Source of the DNA: Fluviicola sp.
Lineage (GTDB): Bacteria; Bacteroidota; Bacteroidia; Flavobacteriales_D; Crocinitomicaceae
Direction of reading: 5' to 3'
DNA length: 64,000 bases
Assembly (NCBI RefSeq): GCF_039596395.1
Contig: NZ_JBCNJT010000001.1
Location: forward strand, 1,027,315-1,091,314
The position numbers and the translations under genes are program-made. Below are positions 39,138-52,109 of this stretch, piece after piece. Under the pieces are notes generated by a model. The model was not told the origin of the DNA. It did no database searches and worked only from the letters and a program-made list of their open reading frames with translations. How positions within the stretch are numbered: the stretch's first letter is position 1; each line of letters begins with the position of its first letter.

Positions 39138-39154
39138 TCTATTTATCCGATAGA
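39138..39154 (+). promoter_or_regulatory. sulfur-regulon site A, upstream of the TonB-dependent receptor
   Basis: The 15-nt core CTATTTATCCGATAG (39139-39153) with arms TCTAT/ATAGA recurs exactly at 42514-42528 upstream of the cys operon. In both places it ends 28 nt before the promoter TTG. Placed about 70 nt upstream of the likely transcription start, it looks like an activator site. The binding protein is not known; the Rrf2 regulator at 42036 is one candidate. Confidence 0.72.
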
Positions 39155-39181
39155 ATTTGTAGAAAATAATTTTCAATTCGC

Positions 39182-39212
39182 TTGTTCAACCCAAAAAGTG
39201 TCCCTTACTTTG
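39182..39212 (+). promoter_or_regulatory. promoter of the TonB-dependent receptor leader
   Basis: TTG (39182-39184), a 21-nt spacer, and TACTTTG (39206-39212). The element has one base less between TA and TTTG than TAnnTTTG, but the same form with the same spacing occurs upstream of the cys operon. Confidence 0.6.
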
Positions 39213-39241
39213 TCCCGGTTAAAACAAAACACACTTCCGGA

Positions 39242-39310
39242 ATGACATGTGAAATCCTACAGATGGAAATGCATGAAGCTTGTTCGTTCAGCGAACGGCA
39301 CAGGGAATGA
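39242..39310 (+). CDS. putative regulatory leader peptide (22 codons) with Cys residues
   Basis: A 22-codon ORF starts at ATG 39242 and stops at TGA 39308-39310. It begins MTCEILQMEMHEAC and holds two Cys (codons 3 and 14) and three Met (codons 1, 8 and 10). It lies between the promoter and an intrinsic terminator, 87 nt before the TonB-receptor start. The arrangement matches a leader-peptide attenuator and parallels the Cys-Cys leader at 42628. Internal ATG codons at 39263 and 39269 are alternative starts. CTTCCGG upstream (39234-39240) can pair with CCGGAAG of the terminator right arm (39354-39360), a possible antiterminator. Confidence 0.5.
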   Translation: MTCEILQMEMHEACSFSERHRE

Positions 39311-39335
39311 TTTGTCTTAAAAGAGTTAATAGGCA

Positions 39336-39368
39336 AACCCTTCCGATGATCGTCCGGAAGGGTTTTTT
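39336..39368 (+). terminator. intrinsic terminator in the TonB-receptor leader
   Basis: AACCCTTCCG (39336-39345) pairs with CGGAAGGGTT (39355-39364), followed by a T-run to 39368. It stands between the leader peptide and the TonB receptor, 28 nt before the ATG, and there is no other gene it could end, so conditional termination is likely. The 354-nt gap 39043-39396 holds only this control region. Confidence 0.88.
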
Positions 39369-39396
39369 GTTTGCATCCTAATACGAATAAAAAGAT

Positions 39397-41934
39397 ATGA
39401 AAACACGATTACTGATTGCTTTTATTTCACTGTTTGCGGTATTTACTTCCAAAGCACAAACGGTTATACAGGGAGAAGTGGTGGACGAAACCGGCCAATA
39501 TATTCCGAATTCCCGGATTACAGTCATCTCAACGGGAAGGACTTATTTGAGTGATTCTTTGGGGAAATTTTCCATAGAAACTTCTGAGAACATTCCTTTC
39601 GCAGTCAAATTCCATACTCCCGGGTTCCAGTCCTCGGAATTGGAGATCAAAGAAGGAACAAACACGGGGATTCATGTGGTTTTGAAGGATGAAGCTTTGT
39701 CGGAAGTGTTGGTTTCGGCCAGAAGGAGGGAAGAATCTGCGCAGGATTTGCCCATTCCGATTGCGGTGATTTCCGGTGCCGCTGTTTCTGAGTCGGGTTC
39801 GTTTAATGTGAACCGCGTGAAGGAATTGGTACCATCCGTTCAGCTTTATTCTTCGAATCCCCGCAATACGACGCTGAACATTCGCGGATTGGGATCCACT
39901 TACGGGTTGACGAATGACGGAATTGATCCGGGAGTAGGGTTTTATGTCGACGGAGTTTATTACGCCCGGCCTGCAGCCACTACACTTGATTTTATAGATG
40001 TCGAACAGATCGAAGTATTGCGTGGGCCGCAGGGGACTTTATTCGGGAAAAACACGACAGCCGGTTCGTTCAATATTACTACCAAAAAGCCCGGATTTAC
40101 GCCGGGAGCGAGCTTCGAGTTGAGTTACGGAAATTACGGGTACATCCAGGCAAAAGCGTCCATCACGGGGCCGGTCAGTAAAAAAATTGCGGCAAGGGCT
40201 TCTTTTTCCGGAACACAGCGGAACGGAACGATTTACAACGTAGCAACCGGCAAATACACCAATGATTTGAATAACCAGGGAGCAAGAATTCAATTCCTCT
40301 ACAAACCGACTGAAAAAATCAACATCACACTAGCCGGGGATTATTCGCGGCAAAGACCGGATGGCTATGCGCAGGTAATTGCGGGCGTGGTGAAAACGAA
40401 ACGCGCGGACTACAGGCAATTCGACCGGATCATTGAAGACCTGAACTATTCCTTGCCAAGTGAGCAGGCATTCGACCGGAAGATCGATCACAATACCGTT
40501 TGGAAATCGAACCAGGATATGGGCGGAGTTTCTTTGAATACCGATTTTAAAGTAGGAAAAGGGAAGATCACTTCGACTACCGCCTGGCGTTTCTGGGATT
40601 GGGATCCTTCCAATGACCGCGATTTTACGGGATTAGATGTTCTGTCTATCTCCCAGGCTCCTTCCAAACACCAGCAATGGTCGCAGGAAGTGCGCTATGC
40701 CGGTGACTGGACGAAATGGCTGAGCGCGGTTGCGGGAATTTATGTCATCGGCCAGGAATTGAAAGGTTCGCAAAAAGAAGAAAGCGGCAAAGACCAATGG
40801 CGTTTTGCACAAAGTTCTACCAGTTCGCTTTGGCAAACTCCCGGGCTGTTTGAAGGTTATGGTATCAATACCCGCTCGAAATTGAACAGCTGGAGCAGTG
40901 CCGTATTCGGGCAGCTGGATTGGAAACTCTTGCGCAAAGTACATGTGCTGACCGGATTCCGTTTCAATTACGATGCAAAAGAAGTCTATTTCGACCGAAA
41001 AACTTACGGCGGGCTTCAAACAACAGACCCGGCCCTGATTGCGTTGAAAAAACAAGTGTACACAGATCAGAACTTCCATACAAAAACTGAAAATTCGAAT
41101 TTGTCGGGGCAATTGACGCTTTCTTACAAACCGGTCCGCCAAATCACAGCTTATGGTACTTTTTCAACAAGCTACAAACCGGTCGGACTGAATTTAGGAG
41201 GATTGCCCACCGAATCGGGGCGGGTAATGACAGAATTGGCAATTGTGCGGCCGGAATTTGTACAGCATACTGAAATAGGCGTCAAAACCGCCCCGCTGAA
41301 GAACTTTATAGTCAACGTGACTGCTTACAACACCGAAATCAAAGATTACCAAACGCAGGTACAGACTGCAGAGGTCGGAGTAAACAGGGGATATCTCGCA
41401 AATGCTGAAAGAGTGCGCGTATTTGGAGTGGAACTGGATGGGAATATCCGCTTCAACGAGTATGTTTCACTTTATGCAAATGCGGCTTATACGGAAGGAA
41501 AATACGTGAAATTTGAAAATGCACCCGTTCCTTTGGAGGAAACTGGAGGTTCAAGCGCATATAAGGATATTTCCGGTTCCAGGCTGCCCGGCATTTCAAA
41601 ATGGATTGGCTCGGTAGGGGCGGATTTCAGTTTGAAAGGGCAGCTGTTTAAGTGGGACGGAAGATTCTTTTTAGCACTCGATTCGTATGCAAGATCATCC
41701 TTTTCATCCAGTGCTTCCGAGTCCGCGTACTTGAATGTTTCCGGCTATGCTTTGCTCAACGGACGAATCGGGTTCAGGGCAGGTGAAGGAGTTTCCCTCT
41801 TCCTGTGGGCAAGAAACCTCCTTAACAGGGATTATTACGAGCAATTATTGGTTGCAGCCGGAAATGCCGGACAATATGCCGGTGTATTGGGAGATCCTGC
41901 AACTTACGGAGTAACGATGAAGTATGCATTTTAG
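39397..41934 (+). CDS. TonB-dependent outer-membrane receptor, predicted to be sulfur-regulated
   Basis: An 845-residue receptor for TonB-driven uptake across the outer membrane. A signal peptide (residues 1-~20, ending FTSKA before QTVIQG) is followed by a carboxypeptidase-regulatory-like domain (~22-105), a plug (~115-230: DLPIPIAVISGAAV, LNIRGLGSTYG, IEVLRGPQGTLFGKNTTAGSFNI) and a ~600-residue barrel ending with the aromatic strand TYGVTMKYAF. No SusD-like gene follows, so it is of the siderophore/cobalamin-like FecA class rather than SusC. The upstream control region is shared with the sulfate-reduction operon, which suggests an organosulfur or sulfated substrate; this is inference. Its terminator is at 41964-41992. 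Confidence 0.93.
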   Translation: MKTRLLIAFISLFAVFTSKAQTVIQGEVVDETGQYIPNSRITVISTGRTYLSDSLGKFSIETSENIPFAVKFHTPGFQSSELEIKEGTNTGIHVVLKDEALSEVLVSARRREESAQDLPIPIAVISGAAVSESGSFNVNRVKELVPSVQLYSSNPRNTTLNIRGLGSTYGLTNDGIDPGVGFYVDGVYYARPAATTLDFIDVEQIEVLRGPQGTLFGKNTTAGSFNITTKKPGFTPGASFELSYGNYGYIQAKASITGPVSKKIAARASFSGTQRNGTIYNVATGKYTNDLNNQGARIQFLYKPTEKINITLAGDYSRQRPDGYAQVIAGVVKTKRADYRQFDRIIEDLNYSLPSEQAFDRKIDHNTVWKSNQDMGGVSLNTDFKVGKGKITSTTAWRFWDWDPSNDRDFTGLDVLSISQAPSKHQQWSQEVRYAGDWTKWLSAVAGIYVIGQELKGSQKEESGKDQWRFAQSSTSSLWQTPGLFEGYGINTRSKLNSWSSAVFGQLDWKLLRKVHVLTGFRFNYDAKEVYFDRKTYGGLQTTDPALIALKKQVYTDQNFHTKTENSNLSGQLTLSYKPVRQITAYGTFSTSYKPVGLNLGGLPTESGRVMTELAIVRPEFVQHTEIGVKTAPLKNFIVNVTAYNTEIKDYQTQVQTAEVGVNRGYLANAERVRVFGVELDGNIRFNEYVSLYANAAYTEGKYVKFENAPVPLEETGGSSAYKDISGSRLPGISKWIGSVGADFSLKGQLFKWDGRFFLALDSYARSSFSSSASESAYLNVSGYALLNGRIGFRAGEGVSLFLWARNLLNRDYYEQLLVAAGNAGQYAGVLGDPATYGVTMKYAF

Positions 41935-41963
41935 ATAGAAAACGGAATAATCTTAATTAAAAG

Positions 41964-41992
41964 AGCCTGTCGGATCAGTTCGACGGGCTTTA
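41964..41992 (+). terminator. terminator of the TonB receptor
   Basis: AGCCTGTCG (41964-41972) pairs with CGACGGGCT (41981-41989) with one G:U pair, followed by only TTT. Modest strength. Confidence 0.5.
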
Positions 41993-42005
41993 ATGAGTTT
42001 TCAAT

Positions 42006-42030
42006 TCCTATTAATTTAGTAGTATATTTG
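42006..42030 (+). promoter_or_regulatory. promoter of the Rrf2 regulator with possible operator half-site
   Basis: TATATTTG (42023-42030) is a -7 element ending 5 nt before the Rrf2 ATG, so the mRNA could be nearly leaderless. TCCTAT (42006-42011) repeats the half-site of the sulfur-regulon motif at 42512-42530 (TCCTAT...ATAGGA), which would allow autoregulation. Confidence 0.4.
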
Positions 42031-42035
42031 TTTTT

Positions 42036-42491
42036 ATGATACCAAAAAGGTCCAAGTATGCCATCCAGGCATTGAAGTGTTTAGCGAAAGTTTACCGCGA
42101 TAAGAAACATTTGTCGATTGCAACCATTGCAGAAGAAGAACATATTCCGAGAAAATTCCTGGAAGCCATTTTGCTGCAACTACGGAATGGGGGAATGGTA
42201 GGCAGTAAAATGGGCGCAAACGGCGGGTATTTCCTGGTAAAACACCCGGACGAAATCGTTTTGAGCAACATCATTCGCGCAACCGGCGGACCTATTGCCT
42301 TGCTTCCTTGTGTGAGCCTGAATTTCTACGAAGAATGCCTGGAATGTCCGCATGAAGAGCTTTGCGGGTTACACGATGTGATGCTGGAAGTACGCGAAGC
42401 AAGCATTCATATTCTCTCCAAAACAAGTCTGGCTGATTTAATTTTACGTGAAAAGAAATTGTTGAGAAAAGCTGAAAGTAAGCGTAAATAG
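42036..42491 (+). CDS. Rrf2-family transcription regulator with clustered cysteines
   Basis: A 151-residue Rrf2-type regulator. The winged helix-turn-helix is KYAIQALKCLAKVYRDKKHLSIATIAEEEHIPRKFLEAILLQLRNGGMVGSKMGANGGYFL, close to IscR/NsrR/CymR. Cys92, Cys101, Cys104 and Cys110 (PCVSLNFYEECLECPHEELC) could bind an Fe-S cluster or act as a thiol sensor. The gene lies directly between the sulfur-regulated TonB receptor and the sulfate-reduction operon, so it is a good candidate for their regulator, as CymR is in Bacillus. Its own promoter has one half-site of the shared motif. This role is inference. Confidence 0.9.
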   Translation: MIPKRSKYAIQALKCLAKVYRDKKHLSIATIAEEEHIPRKFLEAILLQLRNGGMVGSKMGANGGYFLVKHPDEIVLSNIIRATGGPIALLPCVSLNFYEECLECPHEELCGLHDVMLEVREASIHILSKTSLADLILREKKLLRKAESKRK

Positions 42492-42511
42492 TCGTTTTTT
42501 TGAATTTAATC

Positions 42512-42530
42512 TCCTATTTATCCGATAGGA
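42512..42530 (+). promoter_or_regulatory. sulfur-regulon site B, upstream of the cys operon
   Basis: TCCTAT (42512-42517), spacer TTATCCG, ATAGGA (42525-42530): a 6-bp inverted repeat whose core CTATTTATCCGATAG is identical to that at 39139-39153. The core ends 28 nt before the promoter TTG, as at site A. Confidence 0.75.
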
Positions 42531-42556
42531 ATAATGGAAAATAAATTCACTTTTCC

Positions 42557-42587
42557 TTGGACCTTTCACAAACAGCCGTTTACTTTG
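42557..42587 (+). promoter_or_regulatory. promoter of the cys operon leader
   Basis: TTG (42557-42559), a 21-nt spacer and TACTTTG (42581-42587). Same sequences and spacing as the promoter at 39182-39212. Confidence 0.65.
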
Positions 42588-42627
42588 CACCATCATTGAT
42601 TCAGGATTGAATCCAACAAGTAGAAAT

Positions 42628-42705
42628 ATGATCAAGAAGAACTTCATGCGTCAAATGCCAATGCAGCTGTGTTGTATGTCCCGTATGGGACAGCGGAAGG
42701 AATAA
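42628..42705 (+). CDS. putative leader peptide (25 codons) with Cys-Cys and six Met
   Basis: A 25-codon ORF from ATG 42628 to TAA 42703-42705. It begins MIKKNFMRQMPMQLCCMSRM: two adjacent Cys (codons 15-16) and six Met in 20 codons. Cys and Met are rare amino acids and the end products of the operon that follows, so the peptide looks like a ribosome-based sensor for Cys-tRNA or Met-tRNA supply. An intrinsic terminator lies 25 nt after it and ends 22 nt before the first gene. GGAAGG near the end of the ORF (42695-42700) can partly pair with CCTTC of the terminator left arm, a possible antiterminator. Confidence 0.62.
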   Translation: MIKKNFMRQMPMQLCCMSRMGQRKE

Positions 42706-42730
42706 CTATAAACGAACAAGTGAGTTACAG

Positions 42731-42763
42731 CCCTTCTCCGTATCCAACAGAGAAGGGTTTTTT
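42731..42763 (+). terminator. intrinsic terminator in the cys operon leader
   Basis: CCCTTCTC (42731-42738) pairs with GAGAAGGG (42750-42757), followed by six T. It stands between the leader peptide and the first structural gene. Confidence 0.9.
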
Positions 42764-42784
42764 ATTGCAATCAACATTTTAAAC

Positions 42785-43663
42785 ATGAAAAAAGTATATA
42801 TCAATGAATATGGTCCGAGAGTCTCAGCTGCTATTTACGGCTTTTGGCGCTGGACGGAAGAAGATCTTCAGGGAGCACGTAAATTTGAAGATGTCGTATT
42901 GTTTACACGTGAATTGGGAATCGATACATATGACCTGAGCACGAATCACGGATCAAGTCAATTGGAAACCCAATTCGGTAAACTGATCGAATCCAAAGCG
43001 ATTAACCAATCGGAACTGATCTTGTCGAAAAAGGTCGGTTTACGCGAATATTCCGGTTCTCACGGAAGTGGTATTTACCACGATTTGAGCCCGCAGTACA
43101 TTACAAAAGAGGTGGAGCAGTCTTTGACCCGGCTGAAAAGAGATAAAATAGAGATCCTGATCCTGGAAGGTTTTGACTTCCTGTCTAATTTCGAGGAAAC
43201 AGCTTCGGCCTTATTGAAACTGCAGCGAAGCGGGAAGATCTCTTACATCGGGGTTTCCAATTTCAATGTGTTCCAGCAAAGATTGTTGTCTTCGTCACTT
43301 TCGCAGCCCATCATTACCAATCACCTGGAACTGAATTTACTGCAAACGGAAGCGCTTCACGACGGTCGATTTGATTTTATTCGCGAACAGCACAGCAGGG
43401 CAATGGCGTTTTCTCCGCTTGCCGACGGACGTATTTTGCTTAGCGAAGACGCTCAGGCGGTCAAATTGCGTCTGGCTTTGATAGAAATCGGTAAAAAGTA
43501 CGAAGCGAACGTGGAGCAGGTTGCAGTTGCCTGGCTGAATAAACTGGGAGCATTGCCTATCATTGGAAGCAAGGAAAAGCGCCGGATCCAAAATGCGGCA
43601 ACGGCACATGCTTTCGAGCTTACGCGGGAAGAATGGTATTACCTGTACAACGCTACGAACTAG
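42785..43663 (+). CDS. aldo/keto reductase in the sulfate-reduction operon
   Basis: A 292-residue NAD(P)H-dependent oxidoreductase of the aldo/keto reductase family (YdhF-like). A TIM barrel is evident: ELGIDTYDLSTNHGSSQLETQFG at the start, LTRLKRDKIEILILEGFDFL, KISYIGVSNFNVFQQ, and the C-terminal AWLNKLGALPIIGSKEKRRIQNA that binds the 2'-phosphate. The catalytic Asp is in DTYDLS; at the usual catalytic Tyr place, NHGSS shows no Tyr, so activity as a reductase should be examined. It is the first gene of the operon, 2 nt ahead of the sulfite reductase. An AKR is unusual in a cys operon and its role is unknown. Confidence 0.88.
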   Translation: MKKVYINEYGPRVSAAIYGFWRWTEEDLQGARKFEDVVLFTRELGIDTYDLSTNHGSSQLETQFGKLIESKAINQSELILSKKVGLREYSGSHGSGIYHDLSPQYITKEVEQSLTRLKRDKIEILILEGFDFLSNFEETASALLKLQRSGKISYIGVSNFNVFQQRLLSSSLSQPIITNHLELNLLQTEALHDGRFDFIREQHSRAMAFSPLADGRILLSEDAQAVKLRLALIEIGKKYEANVEQVAVAWLNKLGALPIIGSKEKRRIQNAATAHAFELTREEWYYLYNATN

Positions 43664-43665
43664 TC

Positions 43666-45759
43666 ATGGAAAGTTTCAGAACGGTATACGAAAACCAGGT
43701 CGGCGATAACAAATTGCGTGTTGAGCAGGATATCCTGGAACTGGGCGAGAAAATTGCCGCATTCAAAGAAGGTAAAATTCCCGATGATAAGTTCCGCGCC
43801 TTACGCCTTGCGCGTGGGGTTTACGGACAACGTCAGCTGGGAGTCCAGATGATCCGTATTAAATTGCCGTATGGGAAAGTAACTTCGGGTCAATTGCGCA
43901 GGATTGCGCAGGTAAGTGATGAATACAGCACCGGACGGTTGCACATTACCACGCGGCAGGATATCCAGATCCACCACGTTTCCCTGGACCGGACTCCCCA
44001 ATTGTGGGCAGATCTCGAAAAAGACGACGTTACGCTTCGGGAAGCGTGTGGAAATACAGTAAGAAACGTTACGGCAAGCGATAATGCGGGCATCAATCCC
44101 AACGAATTGTTTGACGTCACACCCTATGCGGAACAGGTTTTCCGGTACTTTCTGCGAAAACCGTTCGGACAGGAATTGGGTCGCAAGATCAAGATCGCGT
44201 TCAGTTCGGATGACGCCGACGATACGTTTACCTTTATCCACGATTTCGGCTTTATTCCACGTGTGGAAGCCGAAGTAAAAGGATTTAAAGTACTGGTAGG
44301 CGGAGGACTTGGTGCGCAGCCTTTTTTGGCTCATACTGCTTACGAATTCCTTCCTGCTACAGAAATCATCCCGTTTATAGAAGCGTCCATCCGCATTTTC
44401 GACCGCCACGGAGAACGAAACAGCCGGAATAAAGCCCGGATGAAATACCTGGTATCCAAACTCGGATTGGAATCTTTTTTAGAATTGGTTGACCGGGAAA
44501 GAGCAGCCGTTCAGTTTGAACCGGAGAAAGATAGTTTGATTGATTTAAATGGTTTTGATTATCAGAATCTTGACCCGGTTGATATCAATCAATTGTTTAC
44601 GGAAGATCCAGTTTACAATCAATGGGTAAAAACCAATGTGTTTCCGCAAAAGCAACCGGGGCATCTGGCAGTTTATGTCAAAGTTCCTTTGGGAGATTTT
44701 TACACGGACCAGGCGCGTTCCCTGGCTTATTTGCTGGATAGTTTACAACTCCCGGAATTGCGGTTTACGATTAACCAGAACATCCAGTTGCGCGGAGTAA
44801 GGAAAGATCAATTGCCAACGGTTTATTCGCAGCTTTCTTTACTGAATCTGATCGAGCCCGGATTTGGCGGATTGACGGATATCACTGCTTGTCCGGGAAC
44901 GAATACCTGTAACCTGGGAATTTCCAACAGTACGAATGTTGCTTTGGAACTCGAATCTTTTATCCGCACCAACTACCCGAAACTGATCGAAGAAACGGGA
45001 ATTTCGATCAAGATCAGCGGCTGTATGAATTCCTGCGGACAGCATGGTTTGGCGCAAATCGGGTTTCATGGAAGTTCTATTAAAACAAAAGAAGGAACAC
45101 TTCCGGCTTTGCAGGTTTTGCTCGGTGGTGGAAAAACCGGTTCTGGAACAGGAAGAATTGCTGAAAAAGTGATTAAAGTTCCCAGCAAACGCATTTTGAA
45201 AGTGGTTCAGTTCATTCTGGATGATTTCCTGGAATTCCACGAAAACGACGAGTATTTCAATGATTATTTCGACCGCAGAGGAAATGCCTGGTTCTACAAT
45301 TTGTTGAAACCGTTGGCTGATCTGGAAGAAGTTGCCCCGGAAGAATACCTGGATTGGGGGCAAAATGAACGGTTCGCAACAGCAATCGGAGTGGGCGAGT
45401 GTGCCGGTGTGATCATTGATCTCGTAGCAACTTTATTTTCAGATGCGGAAGAAAAGTGGGAATCTGCAACGGTAGCCTTGGAACAATCGCGGTTTGCAGA
45501 TGCTGTTTACTACGCCTATGCTGCCGGCATTCACGCTGCAAAAGCACGCCTGATCGAAAAAGGGATCCGATGCAACACCCAACAGGGAATCCTGACGGAT
45601 TTTGATACGCACTTGGGGGAAACATTCGGATTTTCTGAAACAAACAGCTTCAGTGAAAAAATCCTGGAAATAAACAAAGAAAAAGCCACGGAAACTTTTG
45701 CAAAAGCCTATTTGAATGAGGTGTCTGAGGTATTAACGAAATTGACAAAAAAACAATGA
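43666..45759 (+). CDS. nitrite/sulfite reductase hemoprotein (siroheme, 4Fe-4S), probable assimilatory sulfite reductase
   Basis: A 697-residue reductase that takes sulfite to sulfide with six electrons. Two ferredoxin-like half-domains alternate with siroheme/4Fe-4S domains (TTRQDIQIHHVSLDRTPQLWADLEKDDVTLREACGNTVRNVTA; later TINQNIQLRGVRKDQL). The cluster cysteines are Cys409 and Cys415 (ACPGTNTC) and Cys453 and Cys457 (SGCMNSCG). The last ~130 residues (WGQNERFATAIGVGECAGVIID onwards) form an extra helical, HEPN-like domain seen in some Bacteroidota enzymes. Place among cysHDN, siroheme genes and a ferredoxin reductase favours sulfite over nitrite. The ATG at 43666 is taken (the ORF extends to 43633, inside the AKR gene). 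It overlaps the next gene by ATGA. Confidence 0.94.
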   Translation: MESFRTVYENQVGDNKLRVEQDILELGEKIAAFKEGKIPDDKFRALRLARGVYGQRQLGVQMIRIKLPYGKVTSGQLRRIAQVSDEYSTGRLHITTRQDIQIHHVSLDRTPQLWADLEKDDVTLREACGNTVRNVTASDNAGINPNELFDVTPYAEQVFRYFLRKPFGQELGRKIKIAFSSDDADDTFTFIHDFGFIPRVEAEVKGFKVLVGGGLGAQPFLAHTAYEFLPATEIIPFIEASIRIFDRHGERNSRNKARMKYLVSKLGLESFLELVDRERAAVQFEPEKDSLIDLNGFDYQNLDPVDINQLFTEDPVYNQWVKTNVFPQKQPGHLAVYVKVPLGDFYTDQARSLAYLLDSLQLPELRFTINQNIQLRGVRKDQLPTVYSQLSLLNLIEPGFGGLTDITACPGTNTCNLGISNSTNVALELESFIRTNYPKLIEETGISIKISGCMNSCGQHGLAQIGFHGSSIKTKEGTLPALQVLLGGGKTGSGTGRIAEKVIKVPSKRILKVVQFILDDFLEFHENDEYFNDYFDRRGNAWFYNLLKPLADLEEVAPEEYLDWGQNERFATAIGVGECAGVIIDLVATLFSDAEEKWESATVALEQSRFADAVYYAYAAGIHAAKARLIEKGIRCNTQQGILTDFDTHLGETFGFSETNSFSEKILEINKEKATETFAKAYLNEVSEVLTKLTKKQ

Positions 45760-46520
45760 ATAGTAAATTAATTCCGCAGATTTCCCTGGTTGGGGCAGGG
45801 CCGGGAGATATCGAACTGATTTCCGTCAAGGGGCTCAACCGCTTGAAGAAAGCCAATGTGGTGCTTTACGATGCACTGGTGAACGAAGAATTATTGACTT
45901 ACGCTCCGACCGCGAAGAAGATCTTTGTAGGAAAGCGTTTAGGATTTAAAGCATACGAACAGGAGCAGATTAACCAACTTTTGGTAGAATCAGCCAATGA
46001 ATATGGTCATGTAGTACGCTTGAAAGGTGGAGATTCTTTTGTTTTCGGAAGAGGAATGGAAGAGGTGCTCTTTGCACAAAAGCATCAGATCTCGACGGAA
46101 GTCATCCCGGGAATTTCGAGTTCGATTGCTGTTCCTGCGTTGGCGAATATCCCGGTAACACATCGCGGGGTGAGTAATTCATTCCTGGTCTTATCAGCTA
46201 CTTTGGCTGATGGCTCTTTGAACCCGGAGTTGGAGAAAGCTGCTTCTTTGAATGCAACGATTGTGATCCTGATGGGGGTGAGTCAGCTTGAAAAGATTGC
46301 CGGTTTGTTTACGAAACACTCCAGGGCGGATCTTCCGGCAGCAGTGATTTGCAACGGTTCATTGCCTGAAGAGGAAATCATTGTGGGAACGGTTGCCACG
46401 ATTTCAGAACAATACAGAAGGTCAGAAGTAAAAGGGCCGGGAGTAATTGTGATCGGTGAAGCAGTATCGTTTGCGGAAGTCTGTAACACACCATTATCCG
46501 GTTCAATTTGTCTTTCATGA
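45756..46520 (+). CDS. cobA: uroporphyrinogen-III C-methyltransferase (SUMT)
   Basis: A 254-residue SAM-dependent methyltransferase that makes precorrin-2 from uroporphyrinogen III, the first siroheme step. Signatures are ISLVGAGPGDIELISVKGLNRLKKANVVLYDALV, VRLKGGDSFVFGRGMEE and VIPGISSSIAVPALANIPVTHRG. It is the stand-alone form, while the dehydrogenase/chelatase part is fused to a transporter in the next gene. It provides siroheme to the sulfite reductase directly upstream. Start and stop overlap neighbours by ATGA on both sides. Confidence 0.96.
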   Translation: MNSKLIPQISLVGAGPGDIELISVKGLNRLKKANVVLYDALVNEELLTYAPTAKKIFVGKRLGFKAYEQEQINQLLVESANEYGHVVRLKGGDSFVFGRGMEEVLFAQKHQISTEVIPGISSSIAVPALANIPVTHRGVSNSFLVLSATLADGSLNPELEKAASLNATIVILMGVSQLEKIAGLFTKHSRADLPAAVICNGSLPEEEIIVGTVATISEQYRRSEVKGPGVIVIGEAVSFAEVCNTPLSGSICLS

Positions 46521-47998
46521 GAGAATCGCATACCAATGAACTATTTCCGGTGTTCCTGAAAACTCATGAACTGCAGGTTTTGCTGGTCGGAGGAGGAGCA
46601 GTGGCACTGGAAAAACTCAGGGCTTTATTGCTGAATTCTCCGGAAACCAATGTGACGGTTGTTGCCCGTGAATATTTGGATGAGTTTATTGATTTTGCCG
46701 AACGCCACGAAACGGTTTACATGGAAGTACGTGATTTTGAAGAAACGGATATTGCCGGGAAACAATTGGTCATTACAGCCTTGAATGATTTGGAGTTTTC
46801 GGAGCATCTAATGAACCTGGCACACGACGCCGGAATCCTGTACAATGCGGCAGACAAACCGGAACTTTGCACTTTCTACCTGGGATCAGTGGTGAAAAAG
46901 GGGCATTTGAAAATCGGGATCTCCACAAACGGCAAATCGCCTACACTGGCAAAACGCCTGAAAGAAATACTGGATGAGAACCTGCCGGATGAATTAAACG
47001 ATTCTGCCTTGCATTTGAATGAATTCCGGAATTTTCTGAAAGGAGATTTTACGAAGAAAGTGAAGAAAATGAATCAGGCAACAGCCGGATTGATTGTCAA
47101 AGCGGAAAGGCCCTGGTATTTCTTTTCTCCCTGGAAGCTTAGCGCTTATCTATTCGGGATATTAGTGGTAATGCTTACCGGGCATTTGATCTTTACGCTG
47201 ATTCCTTTGGAAGGGATCTGGAATTCCGCTTCAGGAATGATCGATTCCCTGACAATCGATTTTGCTTATTTCATGCTGGCCGGATTCATCGCGCAAATGA
47301 TTGATGGGGCTTTGGGAATGGCCTACGGGGTCAGTGCGACTACTTTTCTGCTGTCTTACGGAATTTCTCCGGCTATTTCGAGTATGTCGGTGCACGCGTC
47401 CGAGATTTTTACCAGCGGAGTTTCAGGGATTATGCACCTGCGCTTCGGAAATGTGAATAACAGGCTGTTCAAATCGATTTTGCTTCCCGGGGTGCTGGGA
47501 GCAATTGCAGGGGCTTATCTATTGTCTGAGTTTCAGCATTTCAACTACATCATCAGGCCGGTAGTTAGCTTATACACACTGATTCTGGGCGCATTGATCA
47601 TTTACAAAGTGATCCGTAAGAAACAGGCCCGGAAAAAAGTAACGAAAGCAGGATGGTTGGGGCTTCTGGGAGGATTTTTGGATTCAATCGGCGGTGGCGG
47701 CTGGGGACCGGTCGTTTCATCAACCCTGATTGCCCGTGGAAAACACCCGAGAATGATCGTCGGATCTGTTAATTTAGCGGAGTTTTTCGTTTCTTTGGCA
47801 AGCTCTTTTACGTTCTTTACCGTTCTCGGGGCAAATAATGTATGGCAACCCATTTTCGGATTGATACTGGGAGGAGTTTGTGCAGCGCCGATAGCAGCAT
47901 ATTTGACATCGAAACTGAATATCAAGGCCATGATGTTGTTTGTTGGAATTATAGTCGTAATCGTAAGTTTGCGCAATTTTATAACGGTCTTATTTTAA
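46517..47998 (+). CDS. fusion of siroheme synthase N-domain (precorrin-2 dehydrogenase/ferrochelatase) with a TSUP (TauE/SafE) transporter
   Basis: A 493-residue two-part protein. Residues 1-~190 resemble the CysG N-domain: LFPVFLKTHELQVLLVGGGAVALEKLRALL binds NAD, VVAREYLDEF, LVITALNDLEFSEHLMNLAHDAGILYNAADKPELCTFYLGSVVKKGHLKIGISTNGKSPTLAKRL. Residues ~205-493 have about eight membrane segments of the TSUP type (FMLAGFIAQMIDGALGMAYGVSATTFLL, GLLGGFLDSIGGGGWGPVVSSTLIARG), a family that moves sulfite, sulfate or thiosulfate. No stop or frameshift lies between. The start is ATG at 46517, overlapping the SUMT stop. One chain would link siroheme making to sulfur-ion transport, and no other sulfate transporter is in the operon. 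Confidence 0.92.
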   Translation: MRESHTNELFPVFLKTHELQVLLVGGGAVALEKLRALLLNSPETNVTVVAREYLDEFIDFAERHETVYMEVRDFEETDIAGKQLVITALNDLEFSEHLMNLAHDAGILYNAADKPELCTFYLGSVVKKGHLKIGISTNGKSPTLAKRLKEILDENLPDELNDSALHLNEFRNFLKGDFTKKVKKMNQATAGLIVKAERPWYFFSPWKLSAYLFGILVVMLTGHLIFTLIPLEGIWNSASGMIDSLTIDFAYFMLAGFIAQMIDGALGMAYGVSATTFLLSYGISPAISSMSVHASEIFTSGVSGIMHLRFGNVNNRLFKSILLPGVLGAIAGAYLLSEFQHFNYIIRPVVSLYTLILGALIIYKVIRKKQARKKVTKAGWLGLLGGFLDSIGGGGWGPVVSSTLIARGKHPRMIVGSVNLAEFFVSLASSFTFFTVLGANNVWQPIFGLILGGVCAAPIAAYLTSKLNIKAMMLFVGIIVVIVSLRNFITVLF

Positions 47999-48004
47999 GA
48001 GGAA

Positions 48005-48691
48005 ATGATTGAGAAAATAAAAGAAATAGCCTACACTAACCTGGAGGATTATTTGGCTCAGCTTGCTTCTTTAGACGGAGTAAGAATAGCTTTGTCATCC
48101 AGTTTGAGTTGGGAAGACCAGGTGCTGACACATGCGGTTTATTCACAGGAATTACCGATTCGCGTATTTACATTAGATACCGGCCGGTTGTTTCCGGAAA
48201 CCTACAGCGTGATCGAAGCCACCAGGCAGCGTTATCACAAAGACCTGGAAGTGTATTTTCCGGAATACGGGGCGGTGGAACAATTGGTGACTCAAAAAGG
48301 ACCGATCAGCTTCTACGAATCGCTTGAAAACAGGAAAGAATGCTGTTTTATTCGGAAGGTGGAACCATTGAACCGGGCGTTGAAAGACGTGGATGTCTGG
48401 ATAACCGGGCTTCGTGCAGACCATTCGGAAAACCGTGCAGGTTTGGAATTGATGGAATGGGACGAACAGCGCCGGATTGTCAAGGTGAATCCGCTTGCCA
48501 ACTGGAGCCTGGAAGAAGTTAAAACATACATTAAACAGCATAACATTCCTTATAATGTATTGCAGGATCGCGGTTTTGTAAGTTTGGGATGTCAGCCGTG
48601 CACACGTGCCGTTCAGGAAGGAGAACCTTTCCGTGCTGGTCGCTGGTGGTGGGAAGACAACTCGAAAAAAGAATGTGGGCTGCATAATTAA
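48005..48691 (+). CDS. cysH: adenylylsulfate (APS) reductase, thioredoxin-dependent, 4Fe-4S type
   Basis: A 228-residue reductase that makes sulfite and AMP. Cys113-Cys114 (RKECCFIRK) and Cys196-x-x-Cys199 (GCQPC) are the 4Fe-4S ligands that mark APS reductases, and the catalytic Cys224 is in the C-terminal ECGLHN. The nucleotide part is SSSLSWEDQVLTHAV and VFTLDTGRLFPETY. PAPS-specific CysH lacks the CC...CxxC set, so the substrate should be APS. It lies 6 nt after the TSUP fusion and ahead of cysD, with a 126-nt repeat-containing gap in between. Confidence 0.95.
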   Translation: MIEKIKEIAYTNLEDYLAQLASLDGVRIALSSSLSWEDQVLTHAVYSQELPIRVFTLDTGRLFPETYSVIEATRQRYHKDLEVYFPEYGAVEQLVTQKGPISFYESLENRKECCFIRKVEPLNRALKDVDVWITGLRADHSENRAGLELMEWDEQRRIVKVNPLANWSLEEVKTYIKQHNIPYNVLQDRGFVSLGCQPCTRAVQEGEPFRAGRWWWEDNSKKECGLHN

Positions 48692-48700
48692 TTCGTTGTT

Positions 48701-48793
48701 TCCCCCTTTGAAGGGTGGACCAAGGGGGATGGTCATCCCTCTCAATCTCCTCTTGACGGAGTCTGATACTCGTCAGACCCTCCAGGGGAGAGG
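48701..48793 (+). repeat. hairpin-rich intergenic repeat between cysH and cysD
   Basis: Three inverted repeats in the 126-nt gap: TCCCCCTT (48701-48708) with AAGGGGGA (48722-48729), CCTCTC (48738-48743) with GAGAGG (48788-48793), and GTCTGA (48761-48766) with TCAGAC (48773-48778) nested inside the second. There is no T-run, so it does not end the operon. It is like intergenic repeats seen in other Bacteroidota and may affect mRNA processing or the cysH:cysDN ratio. Confidence 0.55.
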
Positions 48794-48817
48794 TGTTGAG
48801 AAATTTAATGAACAAAA

Positions 48818-49717
48818 ATGAAAGATTATTTAGACGAATTGGAGGCGGAAGCCATTTACATCCTGCGGGAAGTTGCGGGACAATTTGACCGGCCGGCTTT
48901 ATTGTTTTCCGGGGGAAAAGACAGCATTTGCCTGGTGCATCTGGCTTTGAAAGCCTTCAGGCCGGGTAAGTTTCCTTTCCCGCTGGTACATGTCGACACG
49001 GGACATAATTTCCGGGAGGCACTTGAATTCAGGGATGCTTTGGCGGCAGAACTGGGAGAACAGCTAATTGTCCGGAATGTAGCTGATACCATTGCGAAAC
49101 AGAAACTACAGGATGCAAAAGGAAAATTCCCGAGCAGAAATGCTTTGCAGACTTATACCTTACTGGAAGTGATCGAAGAATTTGAGTTCGATGCCTGTAT
49201 CGGCGGAGCACGAAGAGACGAAGAAAAAGCACGGGCCAAAGAGCGGGTTTTCTCCGTTCGTGACGAATTCGGTCAGTGGGACCCGAAGTTGCAGCGTCCG
49301 GAATTGTGGAGTATTTATAACGGAAAGATCGATAAAGGAGAAAATGTACGCGTATTCCCGATCAGTAACTGGACAGAGTTGGACGTGTGGAATTACATCA
49401 AGCGTGAAAACATTGCTTTGCCTAAAATTTACTTTACACATGAACGCGAATGTGTTTTGACCGAACACGGCCAGTTGATGGCCAACAATGAATTCCTGAA
49501 CCTGGACGAAAACGACCGGATCGTCACCAAAAAAGTGCGTTACAGAACGGTTGGAGATATGACCTGCACCGCGGCTGTTGAAAGCGAAGCATACACGGTA
49601 GATGATATTATTGCGGAACTGAAAGAAGCAAAAATCTCGGAGCGTGGTGCAACACGCATGGACGACCGTATTTCGGAGGCAGCAATGGAAGACCGGAAGA
49701 AAGGAGGATACTTTTAA
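48818..49717 (+). CDS. cysD: sulfate adenylyltransferase subunit 2
   Basis: A 299-residue ATP-sulfurylase catalytic subunit that makes APS from sulfate and ATP with CysN. The PP-loop is LLFSGGKDSICLVHLALKAF, then FPLVHVDTGHNFREALEFRD, ACIGGARRDEEKARAKERVFSVRDEFGQWDPK, VFPISNWTELDVWNYI and MTCTAAVESEA. The sequence ends RISEAAMEDRKKGGYF as in most CysD. It lies 66 nt ahead of the cysN ATG. Confidence 0.97.
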   Translation: MKDYLDELEAEAIYILREVAGQFDRPALLFSGGKDSICLVHLALKAFRPGKFPFPLVHVDTGHNFREALEFRDALAAELGEQLIVRNVADTIAKQKLQDAKGKFPSRNALQTYTLLEVIEEFEFDACIGGARRDEEKARAKERVFSVRDEFGQWDPKLQRPELWSIYNGKIDKGENVRVFPISNWTELDVWNYIKRENIALPKIYFTHERECVLTEHGQLMANNEFLNLDENDRIVTKKVRYRTVGDMTCTAAVESEAYTVDDIIAELKEAKISERGATRMDDRISEAAMEDRKKGGYF

Positions 49718-49783
49718 TTATCAATGATAAATTATCAATGGTGTAAGTCTTGATAATTGAAAATTGATCATTCATCATTAACT

Positions 49784-51025
49784 ATGGATTTACTAAGATT
49801 TTTTACGGCAGGAAATGTAGATGACGGCAAAAGTACCCTGATCGGGCGTTTGTTGTATGACAGCGAGTCCATTTCCACGGATATTATAGAAACACTCACA
49901 CGCCAGAGTAAAACAACGGGTGAGAACACGGAAATAGACCTGGCTTTGTTAACAGACGGTCTGCGTGCCGAACGCGAACAAGGGATCACGATCGATGTGG
50001 CTTACAAATACTTTTCGACAGACAAGCGTAAGTTCATCATCGCTGATACTCCGGGACACGCACAATATACGCGAAATATGTTCACAGGTGCTTCAACGGC
50101 TCAACTGGCCATTATCCTTGTGGATGCGCGAAACGGAATTACGGAGCAAACAAAACGTCACAGCATTATTTCAGCGGTGCTGGGAATTCCGCAAGTCTTA
50201 TTGTGTATCAACAAAATGGACCTGGCAGGTTACAGCGAGCAACGCTTCGACGAAATTGTCTCCGAATACGCGGATTTTTCCCAAAAGATCGGGTTGAAAA
50301 AGGTAGATTACATCCCGACTTCTGCCCTGGTGGGAGAAAACGTGGTGCATAAAAGCACACAGATGAACTGGTATCCCGGACCATCATTGCTTCATTACCT
50401 GGAAAATATTGAGATCGAAGCTTCCGAAGTTTCCGATGAAGCGCGTTTCCAGGTGCAATACGTGATCCGTCCGCAAACAGAAGAACTGCACGATTACAGA
50501 GGGTATGCAGGAAGCGTTCTGAACGGAACATTTCACACAGGAGATGAGGTAACGGTTTTACCTTCCGGTTTGTCTAGCAGGATCTCTAAGATTGAAAGCA
50601 ATTTGAAGGAAGCAGACAGTGCAGGAAAAAATCAGCCGGTAATCCTTCATCTGGAAGACGATCTGGACATCAGCCGCGGAAATACAATTGTTCCGTCAAA
50701 TGCTTTGCCGGTATCGGAGAAGTCACTGAATGCAACGATCTGCTGGATGGACAATGCGTCATTTAACGCCGGACAGAAATTCATTCTTCAGCAAAACAGT
50801 TTCCGCACGAAAGCGGCGATCAAAGAAATTTACTCAAAGATCGATATTCACAGCTTTAAGGATTTGGAAAGTGACGGAACACTTCGCCTGAACGAATTGG
50901 CTAAAGTTTCCCTTAAAACAGCTGAAGCGGTGAGTTACGATCCGTTCCAAAAGCTGGCGAAAACAGGTGCTTTTATCTTAATTAACGAAAATACCAATCA
51001 AACAGTGGCCGCGGGAGTCCTGTAA
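49784..51025 (+). CDS. cysN: sulfate adenylyltransferase subunit 1 (GTPase)
   Basis: A 413-residue EF-Tu-like GTPase that drives ATP-sulfurylase with CysD. G1 is AGNVDDGKSTLIGRLLYDS, switch II is IADTPGHAQYTRNM, G4 is CINKMDLAGY. Two beta-barrel domains follow. There is no APS-kinase domain at the C-terminus, so it is plain CysN, not CysNC. A TTG at 49757 could extend it, but ATG at 49784 starts directly before the conserved LLRFFTAGNVDDGKS. The intergenic regions before and after it (49718-49783 and 51026-51098) are built of TTGATAATT-like AT-rich repeats common in Bacteroidota. Confidence 0.96.
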   Translation: MDLLRFFTAGNVDDGKSTLIGRLLYDSESISTDIIETLTRQSKTTGENTEIDLALLTDGLRAEREQGITIDVAYKYFSTDKRKFIIADTPGHAQYTRNMFTGASTAQLAIILVDARNGITEQTKRHSIISAVLGIPQVLLCINKMDLAGYSEQRFDEIVSEYADFSQKIGLKKVDYIPTSALVGENVVHKSTQMNWYPGPSLLHYLENIEIEASEVSDEARFQVQYVIRPQTEELHDYRGYAGSVLNGTFHTGDEVTVLPSGLSSRISKIESNLKEADSAGKNQPVILHLEDDLDISRGNTIVPSNALPVSEKSLNATICWMDNASFNAGQKFILQQNSFRTKAAIKEIYSKIDIHSFKDLESDGTLRLNELAKVSLKTAEAVSYDPFQKLAKTGAFILINENTNQTVAAGVL

Positions 51026-51098
51026 TAAATTTGATAAAATTGACAATTGAAAAGACTTTTACATTTTCCATTATCAATTTTCAATTAACATAGAAATC

Positions 51099-52109
51099 AT
51101 GATCGAAACAGATATCATTATCATTGGTGCAGGGCCGGTTGGCCTCTTTACCGTTTTTGAAGCCGGATTGTTAAAATTGCGCTGTCATCTGATTGACTCG
51201 CTGCCACAGCCCGGCGGACAGTGTTCGGAGATTTATCCCAAAAAACCGATTTATGATATTCCCGGATTTCCATCCGTTTTGGCCGGAGATCTGGTAGCTA
51301 ATTTAATGGAGCAGGCAGCACCGTTTAAACCCGGGTTTACTTTGGGAGAAGCTGCTTCCGGGATTGACAAGCAGGAAGACGGTTCATTTATCGTGACTAC
51401 GGTTAAAGGAACGCAACATAAAGCCCCGGTTGTTATGATCGCCGGTGGATTGGGAGTTTTCGAACCGCGTAAACCGCCTATCGAAAGCATCGGGTTATTT
51501 GAAGAAAAAGGAGTGGACTACATCATCAAAGACCCGGAAGTTTTCCGCGGAAAGAAATGTGTGATTGCCGGAGGAGGCGATTCTGCACTGGATTGGTCGA
51601 TTTACTTGGCGGAAAACAACATTGCTTCGGAAGTGACGCTGGTACACAGAAGCGCTTCGTTTCGTGGACATTTGGATTCGGTACAGAAAGTGATCGATAT
51701 GGCCGGAAGCGGTAAAATCTCGTTGATTACAGAAGCCGAAGTAACTGATCTGAAAGGAGGAAGCTCCCTGGAAGAAGTAATCATCAGCCATTCCAAAAAC
51801 GGGGAGATAATTACCAAAGCAGATCATTTTATTCCTTTGTTCGGATTGAAGCCTTCTTTAGGACCGATCGCGGACTGGGGACTGGAAATCGAAAAAAGCG
51901 CCATTAAAGTTAATACGCTGGATTATTCCACCAACATCCCGGGAATTTATGCCATCGGAGATGTGAATACCTATGAGAATAAACTGAAACTGATCCTGTG
52001 TGGATTTCACGAAGGGACGTTAGCGGTTCAATCTGCTTTTGCACGGATACACCCGGATAAGAAAAATATCCTGAAGTATACGACCGTAAATGGGGTGAAT
52101 GGGTTTTAA
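51099..52109 (+). CDS. ferredoxin--NADP(+) reductase, thioredoxin-reductase-like
   Basis: A 336-residue FAD/NAD(P)-dependent reductase of the TrxR-like FNR class. FAD motif: IIIIGAGPVGLFTVFEAG; CHLIDSLPQPGGQCSEIYPKKPIYDIPGFP; NADP motif: KCVIAGGGDSALDWSIYLAE; and FAD-C-terminal GIYAIGDVNTY. The CxxC redox pair of thioredoxin reductases is absent, as in FNRs. As the last gene of the operon, it fits electron supply from NADPH through ferredoxin to the sulfite reductase. No ferredoxin gene is present in the operon. Confidence 0.92.
   Translation: MIETDIIIIGAGPVGLFTVFEAGLLKLRCHLIDSLPQPGGQCSEIYPKKPIYDIPGFPSVLAGDLVANLMEQAAPFKPGFTLGEAASGIDKQEDGSFIVTTVKGTQHKAPVVMIAGGLGVFEPRKPPIESIGLFEEKGVDYIIKDPEVFRGKKCVIAGGGDSALDWSIYLAENNIASEVTLVHRSASFRGHLDSVQKVIDMAGSGKISLITEAEVTDLKGGSSLEEVIISHSKNGEIITKADHFIPLFGLKPSLGPIADWGLEIEKSAIKVNTLDYSTNIPGIYAIGDVNTYENKLKLILCGFHEGTLAVQSAFARIHPDKKNILKYTTVNGVNGF

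Follow-up and report, generated by a model that had tools for sequence, protein, structure and literature searches.

In the CysB-type regulons of Proteobacteria, sulfate assimilation and scavenging transport, including outer-membrane receptors, are co-induced in sulfur starvation. Little appears to be known of the means by which Bacteroidota sense sulfur, or of the sulfur compounds that their many TonB receptors import. The present analysis concerns a stretch of 64,000 nucleotides (nt) from Fluviicola sp. (assembly GCF_039596395.1, contig NZ_JBCNJT010000001.1, positions 1,027,315 to 1,091,314 of the forward strand), hereafter called the window, in which one and the same control region stands before the gene of a TonB-dependent receptor (TBDT) and before a sulfate-assimilation (cys) operon. 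Other closely related systems have been described as well. In Bacillus and Staphylococcus, cysteine and sulfur genes are controlled by CymR, a protein of the Rrf2 family (PMC2869319, PMC9338935), which is described as cluster-free and as working in complex with CysK when cysteine is present (PMC9338935). IscR and NsrR are cluster-binding members of the same family, and the ligands of IscR are given as C92-x5-C98-x5-C104-x2-H107 (PMC5411485). A short open reading frame (ORF) with tandem cysteine (Cys) codons, uORFC-8-2, followed by an intrinsic terminator, precedes cysS in Rhodobacterales (PMC8632094). For Flavobacterium, there is a proposal that leader peptides attenuate amino-acid operons (PMC9723704).

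The two control regions of the window quite probably belong to a Bacteroidota sulfur-starvation regulon that combines a likely Rrf2 operator, a plausible layer of Cys-dependent attenuation and a predicted receptor for a sulfur-containing nutrient. In the proposed mechanism, an operator of the form CTA-N9-TAG would be bound by an Rrf2-family regulator, for which the product of 42036-42491 is the first candidate. In this genus the operator, at about -70, would act as an activator site, while its location at the promoter in most relatives would serve for repression. A second layer would act after initiation. Between the stop of the Cys-containing short ORF and the end of the terminator there is a constant distance of 58 nt; upon shortage of Cys-tRNA the ribosome would stall, the 3' end of the ORF would pair with the 5' arm of the terminator, and the gene would be read through. 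In a shortage of sulfur or cysteine, both layers would jointly induce sulfate assimilation and the receptor, and the latter, which contains almost no methionine (Met) or Cys, would then import a sulfur-containing nutrient.

All the features of the window described here lie on the forward (+) strand. The 15-nt core of the control region, CTATTTATCCGATAG, is found at 39139-39153, where it forms the predicted palindromic operator of the receptor gene, and at 42514-42528, where it forms that of the cys operon. These are the only exact copies in the genome of 4,635,315 bases; when up to two mismatches are allowed, the number of places rises to 16 (including the two exact ones), compared with 7 for a backwards control. 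In both copies the core is followed after 28 nt by TTG-N21-TACTTTG (39182-39212 and 42557-42587), which I take to be the promoter; the start of transcription is placed by the consensus of this promoter type only. The interval between operator and promoter contains, at the same place in the two copies, an A-rich element, AAAATAA (39163-39169 and 42538-42544). A loose form of the whole pattern, in which CTATNNATNNNATAG is followed after 25-31 nt by TTG and after a further 19-23 nt by TANTTTG, matches the genome at the two known copies and nowhere else, and the backwards control gave no match. The promoter pattern with TANNTTTG instead gave no match either, the element here being TACTTTG. Further downstream, each copy has a short ORF containing Cys codons and then a G+C-rich hairpin and its T run.

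These data bear out what an earlier note on this DNA had claimed about the positions of the two cores and about their identical 28-nt gap to TTG-N21-TACTTTG. The note had further described a succession of short Cys ORF, terminator and gene, which is present in both copies; the gene that directly follows the second copy is, however, not cysH but that of an aldo/keto reductase. The concern that the motif might be a common genome repeat was also raised there. Since the genome holds two exact copies only, an origin of the core by chance or as a repeat is ruled out. A well-paired palindrome with one mismatch, AGTCTATCGAATAAATAGATT, occurs elsewhere in the same genome (near 250563; L273:4064-4078), about 110 nt before a gene for a protein of 143 amino acids (aa), itself followed by a large gene of secreted type. 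It does not have the 28-nt geometry and may be a third site or a product of chance.

Judged by its conservation, the shared control region is real and functional. The genus was sampled with 14 genomes, 11 of which (the window's own included) possess a close ortholog of the aldo/keto reductase and a cys cluster. In all 11, the cys genes are preceded by the core, in the form CTAYTTRTYCGATAG, the 28-nt gap and TTG-N21-TACTTTG. Three of these 11 genomes also encode the receptor, between the gene of an M15 peptidase and that of Rrf2; in the window, one extra gene separates the peptidase and receptor genes. Seventeen control regions from three genera were aligned, namely those of the 11 cys and three receptor loci already mentioned, two from other genera and a decayed one. 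TTG lies exactly 28 nt after the core in 16 of the 17, and the AAAATAA element is mostly conserved across 16 aligned sites. The exception to the spacing is the decayed locus, in a reduced congener (L057, about 9030-9320), from which Rrf2 and sulfite reductase are absent and where a fragment of the aldo/keto reductase and an operator with one extra base are left. Another explanation of the similarity would be that the control region of the receptor is a recent local copy of that of the cys operon, without selected function. The leader and terminator geometry is indeed identical within the window and absent from the receptor leaders of two congeners, but a core (in one case with CTAG in place of CTAT) precedes all three receptor genes of the genus at unchanged spacings, amid upstream sequence that is otherwise diverged, and distant receptor orthologs too have this type of palindrome before them. 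A mere local copy is therefore very improbable.

The exact form of the core and the palindrome that it contains differ in their distribution. CTATNNATCCGATAG was found at 14 places in 10 of 120 family genomes, and genes of the window lie nearby at only five of these places, all of them in this genus and all preceding the cys operon or the receptor. In this sample, the CTATNNATCCGATAG form is close to genus-specific and the palindrome is general; comparisons with relatives show the core to be a variant of the wider type CTA-N9-TAG. As receptor orthologs, the best 80 of 550 relatives were used, from named genomes and with 59-83% identity, in genera that include Flavobacterium, Chitinophaga, Algoriphagus and Parabacteroides; such related sequences are non-independent samples. 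In the 350 nt before the gene, CTA-N9-TAG is present for 64 of the 79 receptor orthologs with sufficient sequence, in contrast to 63 of 678 other genes at these loci, and outside Flavobacterium it precedes 38 of 50. When spacers of 4 to 14 were compared, a strong excess was obtained for 9 alone. CTA-N5-TAG and CTA-N6-TAG gave a smaller excess before the receptor (17 and 27 of 79, versus 24 and 41 of 678).

A stricter control consisted of 30 TBDT loci out of 190 matches, in six genomes chosen for an Rrf2, TauE or ChrA neighbour at the receptor locus. Five of the 30 are of the same family as the window receptor, and each has an Rrf2, TauE or ChrA neighbour. None of the remaining 25 has such a neighbour, two have CTA-N9-TAG and none has a well-paired palindrome. 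Within the window's own genome, 12 TBDTs are encoded and the palindrome precedes the window receptor only. The search was also extended to other genes. Strict palindromes were sought in 16 genomes, which yielded 54 rows, compared with 25 in the backwards control, near-palindromes being counted on both strands. A strict Flavobacterium pattern gave matches in four of 16 genomes, at six places. In Chitinophaga-like genomes the strict palindrome also stands before genes for transporters of the TauE type, identified in three genomes by their similarity to the window protein, and before genes named by eye as O-acetylhomoserine sulfhydrylase (two genomes), dioxygenase-like and other TBDT-like genes; these sites come from 20 regions that cover 23 of 39 distinct places. 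Because the backwards control is not empty, single further members of the regulon are uncertain and some of the places are due to chance. As a group, the genes adjoining the Chitinophaga-like sites have a median Met+Cys content of 1.75% (25 genes), compared with 3.17% for 76 others of the same loci (p = 6e-5).

To which regulator the palindrome belongs is suggested by the cys loci of the family. Many genomes have an Rrf2 gene beside their cys genes; 21 loci with and 20 without a linked Rrf2 gene were hand-picked from lists. A well-paired palindrome precedes the cys genes at 18 of the 21 loci with an adjacent Rrf2 gene, as opposed to none of the 20 without. At 17 of the 18 positive loci, the palindrome lies on the side between Rrf2 and cys; in the other one (L293) the Rrf2 gene is at the far side of the cys genes. 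The palindrome of one locus (L279) touches the end of the Rrf2 gene, and that of another, from a different genus (L283), is CTACTTATCCGATAG itself. Most likely, the operator is bound by an Rrf2-family regulator of the sulfur regulon. The Rrf2 protein encoded at 42036-42491 scores 109 bits against PF02082 (gathering score 30), and, encoded between the two operons, it is the first candidate for the binder of the predicted operator.

The family of the binder is thus well supported, with two proteins of it as candidates. The same genome encodes a second Rrf2, 51% identical and located behind lpx genes (gene names by eye). In a tree of Rrf2 proteins, from which 15 near-identical Flavobacterium rows and 4 repeats had been removed and in which few columns leave the deep forks weak, the two proteins fall in different clades, and that of the lpx-linked paralog also holds cys-linked Rrf2 proteins from other, palindrome-carrying genera; the pattern of Cys residues is, besides, common to both proteins. 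These features would fit a regulon that is real but whose operator is bound by the second protein or by both, the neighbouring Rrf2 doing something else. This alternative is given a small share of the probability, since the neighbouring gene precedes the cys operon in 11 of 11 genus genomes with a cys cluster (own included), and since the paralog's own locus is devoid of a well-paired palindrome.

The window Rrf2 falls below the curated cut-offs of the characterized subfamilies. It obtained 67 bits with the CymR model NF047409 (cut-off 195) and 55.1 bits with the IscR model TIGR02010 (cut-off 207.55), and was also below the cut-off for NsrR. Its residues C92-x8-C101-x2-C104-x5-C110-x2-H113 contain four Cys, which are present with spacings of 7-9, 2 and 4-6 in 84 of 84 Rrf2 rows (repeats included); the His is not in all of them. 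The protein differs from CymR, a cluster-free regulator (PMC9338935), in these four conserved Cys and in its score. A further difference is that the regulon proposed here takes in a TonB-dependent receptor and has, within this genus, its site at -70. With IscR it shares the C-x5-C-x2-H part of the ligand pattern; the complete C-x5-C-x5-C-x2-H of IscR (PMC5411485) is not matched, the window protein having C-x8-C-x2-C-x5-C and being linked to sulfur genes. From NsrR, too, the Cys pattern is distinct (PMC5411485). It is conceivable that the operator reads the state of an iron-sulfur cluster or the redox state, as with regulators of the IscR/NsrR type, and that the cys genes and the receptor answer a demand for iron-sulfur clusters. 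The four conserved Cys, like those of the cluster-binding Rrf2 proteins (PMC5411485), would agree with this, as would the best sequence matches of the receptor, which are siderophore-type and colicin/pesticin receptors. Such a role is nevertheless unlikely: the genes that are linked serve sulfate assimilation and sulfur transport, the receptor and the aldo/keto reductase are depleted in Met and Cys, and the Cys codons of the leaders also speak against it. A response to sulfur supply is the reading that is retained.

Whether the regulator activates or represses can be approached from the position of the operator. In the genus, it lies upstream of the inferred start of transcription at a constant distance of about 70 nt. 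The fixed distance between operator and promoter suggests contact with RNA polymerase and therefore an activator-type site, as the earlier note had proposed, and the genus operator is best, if tentatively, read in this way. The position is genuine, and it is rigid both within the genus and at two loci of two other genera. In relatives, however, an element resembling -7 is found no more than 15 nt from the palindrome at 63 of 82 sites: all 18 cys sites, 24 of the 26 receptor sites in Flavobacterium and 21 of the 38 remaining receptor sites. For random positions in receptor upstream regions the corresponding figure is 625 of 3200. The palindrome is mostly just upstream of the -7 element in Flavobacterium and often just downstream of it in Chitinophaga-like species. 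This promoter-proximal location in most relatives therefore suggests a repressor there. Both signs within one regulator family would not be unheard of, given that IscR both represses and activates (PMC5411485). The rigid -70 site of this genus and the promoter-proximal sites elsewhere would amount to a natural experiment on the way in which one operator may pass from repression to activation.

The second layer of control is suggested by the leaders. In the receptor leader, a short ORF with single Cys codons, MTCEILQMEMHEACSFSERHRE (39242-39310), precedes an intrinsic terminator (39337-39368). In the cys leader, the ORF, MIKKNFMRQMPMQLCCMSRMGQRKE (42628-42705), has tandem Cys codons and the terminator is at 42730-42763. 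In both, 58 nt separate the stop codon of the ORF from the end of the T run, a feature that the earlier note does not mention. Among the cys leaders of the genus, the short ORF is found in 11 of 11 and tandem Cys codons in 10 of 11, and the T run ends 57-59 nt behind the stop codon in 10 of 11, despite leader lengths that range from 149 to 203 nt. When the 3' arm of the terminator is omitted from the fold, the last codons of the ORF pair with the 5' arm of the terminator, in all 11 cys leaders and in the receptor leader; the putative 5' arm of the antiterminator is, in the cys leader of the window, GCGGAAGG (42693-42700), at the end of the ORF. Leaders with a Cys ORF and a terminator would plausibly fit a cysteine attenuator, which RNA folding supports in part. 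The arrangement resembles uORFC-8-2, whose description (PMC8632094) concerns another phylum and another gene; here an upstream operator is added, and a receptor gene is involved as well as a sulfate-assimilation operon.

Several results are at odds with attenuation. Equilibrium folding yields the terminator at every ribosome position tried and never the antiterminator; compensatory pairing is weak, 325 of 5000 shuffles being as good; and a Cys-rich upstream ORF (at least 2 Cys in 8 residues) was found in 0 of 26 gaps between Rrf2 and the next gene in other genera. The leader and terminator of the receptor are, in addition, not conserved among its congeneric orthologs, of which there are two: the first possesses a short ORF with a single Cys and no visible terminator (by eye), and the second no leader. 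Together with the single Cys codons of the receptor ORF, they would be explained if the hairpins only set a basal level of expression and the Cys codons were incidental. This account has a real but lesser chance of being correct, against which stand the tandem Cys codons and the fixed distance to the terminator in leaders of such different lengths. It is also opposed by the Cys-rich upstream ORFs of many distant receptor orthologs: short ORFs with at least 3 Cys in 8 residues are present in 12 of 87 receptor upstream regions versus 20 of 760 others (one locus counts twice among the 87, L050 being the contig of L108; L160 was dropped for its short upstream region and L195 was unused). In two Flavobacterium species, a short ORF in the operon right before the receptor ends in seven (L135:7840-7932) and four (L138:7844-7933) consecutive Cys codons; no terminator is visible there. 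Between 36000 and 52000, no Rfam family exceeded its gathering score, the three weak matches all being below it, so that no known riboswitch or RNA family was recognized there.

What the receptor might do under sulfur shortage was examined through its composition and gene context. The window receptor (39397-41934; 845 aa) contains four Met, including the first residue, and no Cys. It passes the Pfam cut-offs for PF07715 (59.8 bits, cut-off 23.9) and PF00593 (112.7 bits, cut-off 27), and with the TonB-dependent siderophore receptor model TIGR01783 it obtains 127.8 bits, below the curated cut-off of 223.5. A sequence search of solved structures returned colicin/pesticin and siderophore receptors only, with low similarity. 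Proteins that are made during sulfur starvation are known to tend towards a loss of sulfur amino acids. After the first residue, Met+Cys averages 0.17% in the 80 orthologs, compared with 1.56% in 25 other TBDTs of six genomes (Mann-Whitney p = 1.6e-13, which the relatedness of the rows overstates), and in 26 of the 80 orthologs the aligned part is free of Met and Cys after its first residue. Among the 12 TBDTs of its own genome, the window receptor has the lowest Met+Cys, with 3 residues after the first where 14.4 would be expected from the other 11. The receptor thus lies far below the TBDTs of the same genomes in Met+Cys, as a sulfur-sparing protein should. The aldo/keto reductase of the cys operon behaves similarly, having 0 or 1 Met or Cys after the first residue at 10 of 10 congeneric loci counted, whereas six other aldo/keto reductases of the genus, picked by eye, have 2.2-4.4%. 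This depletion is a line of evidence independent of the DNA motif. Alone it is no proof, because a few neighbours are equally poor: a protein called LemA-like by eye and its neighbours, encoded before Rrf2 and the receptor in Flavobacterium (L186, L151 and others), are also without Met and Cys at many loci.

In a further genus of the family (L104), two Flavobacterium species (L135, L138), Thermoflexibacter (L144) and a Saprospiraceae genome (L131), receptor orthologs belong to sulfate-assimilation clusters or adjoin them. L104 has the order Rrf2, sulfite reductase, CobA, receptor, CysG-TauE, aldo/keto reductase, CysH. Other neighbours of receptor orthologs are Rrf2, DUF2490, TauE, ChrA and a Cons_hypoth698 protein. 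When the genes of the 80 receptor loci were scanned, a sulfur or anion gene was present at 24, and either that or Rrf2 at 47. In Algoriphagus (L132, L136), receptor orthologs adjoin a ChrA-type chromate transporter, and ChrB_C-type genes are there too (tested in L136 only), which might hint at a link to a sulfate-like oxyanion. Gene context and the extreme depletion of the orthologs in Met and Cys both agree with the role in sulfur shortage that had been predicted for the receptor, and suggest that it brings in a sulfur-containing nutrient under these circumstances. The prediction of a common regulon likewise gains from the same-spacing copies throughout the genus, from the palindrome before distant orthologs and from its tie to Rrf2-linked cys loci.

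On the other side of the balance, a number of counts weigh against the regulon as proposed. The palindrome is absent from 3 of the 21 Rrf2-cys loci and from 15 of the 79 receptor loci. Six more well-paired intergenic palindromes lie elsewhere in the 21 loci, so that the background is not zero. Outside Flavobacterium, the genes scanned include a sulfur or anion gene at 19 of 51 receptor loci, and the inclusion of Rrf2 brings this only to 21 of 51. The receptor itself is patchy, being found in 8 of 299 genomes of the order at E <= 1e-150. Finally, six loci of other genera with the closer Rrf2 were looked at, and only two (L088, L090) have the 28-nt gap before their cys genes, with a -7 element that is not TACTTTG; in L101, L102 and L104 the palindrome stands at other distances, and L089 lacks it.

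With these points taken into account, there is a somewhat better than even case that the Rrf2-controlled sulfur regulon of Bacteroidota is an undescribed one. Its outer-membrane arm would be a TBDT family that is nearly or wholly free of Met and Cys, its operator the palindrome, joined in several lineages by a Cys-rich leader peptide, and its substrate a new class of TonB-imported nutrient, either an organosulfur compound or a carrier of a sulfur oxyanion. A search over titles and the opening parts of abstracts in the open-licence literature found no paper on this regulon. Like the CysB-type regulons, it would bring together assimilation and scavenging; it would differ from them in regulator family, in phylum and in having a receptor almost without Met and Cys. 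A receptor family that sheds sulfur and is tied to one type of operator and one family of regulator provides a handle on both substrate and regulator, and depletion in Met and Cys could serve as a sequence-only marker for further sulfur-starvation genes.

From 39397 to 52109, the window encodes the TBDT, Rrf2, the aldo/keto reductase, sulfite reductase, CobA, a CysG-TauE fusion, CysH, CysD, CysN and a flavin-type oxidoreductase. The first gene of the cys operon (42785-43663) was assigned to the aldo/keto reductases by domain search. Profile matches identified sulfite reductase (43633-45759), the uroporphyrinogen-III C-methyltransferase CobA (45756-46520), a single protein in which the N-terminal part of siroheme synthase is fused to a TauE/SafE transporter (46508-47998), and CysH, CysD and CysN (48005-51025). 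Near its C-terminal end, the sulfite reductase carries a HEPN domain.

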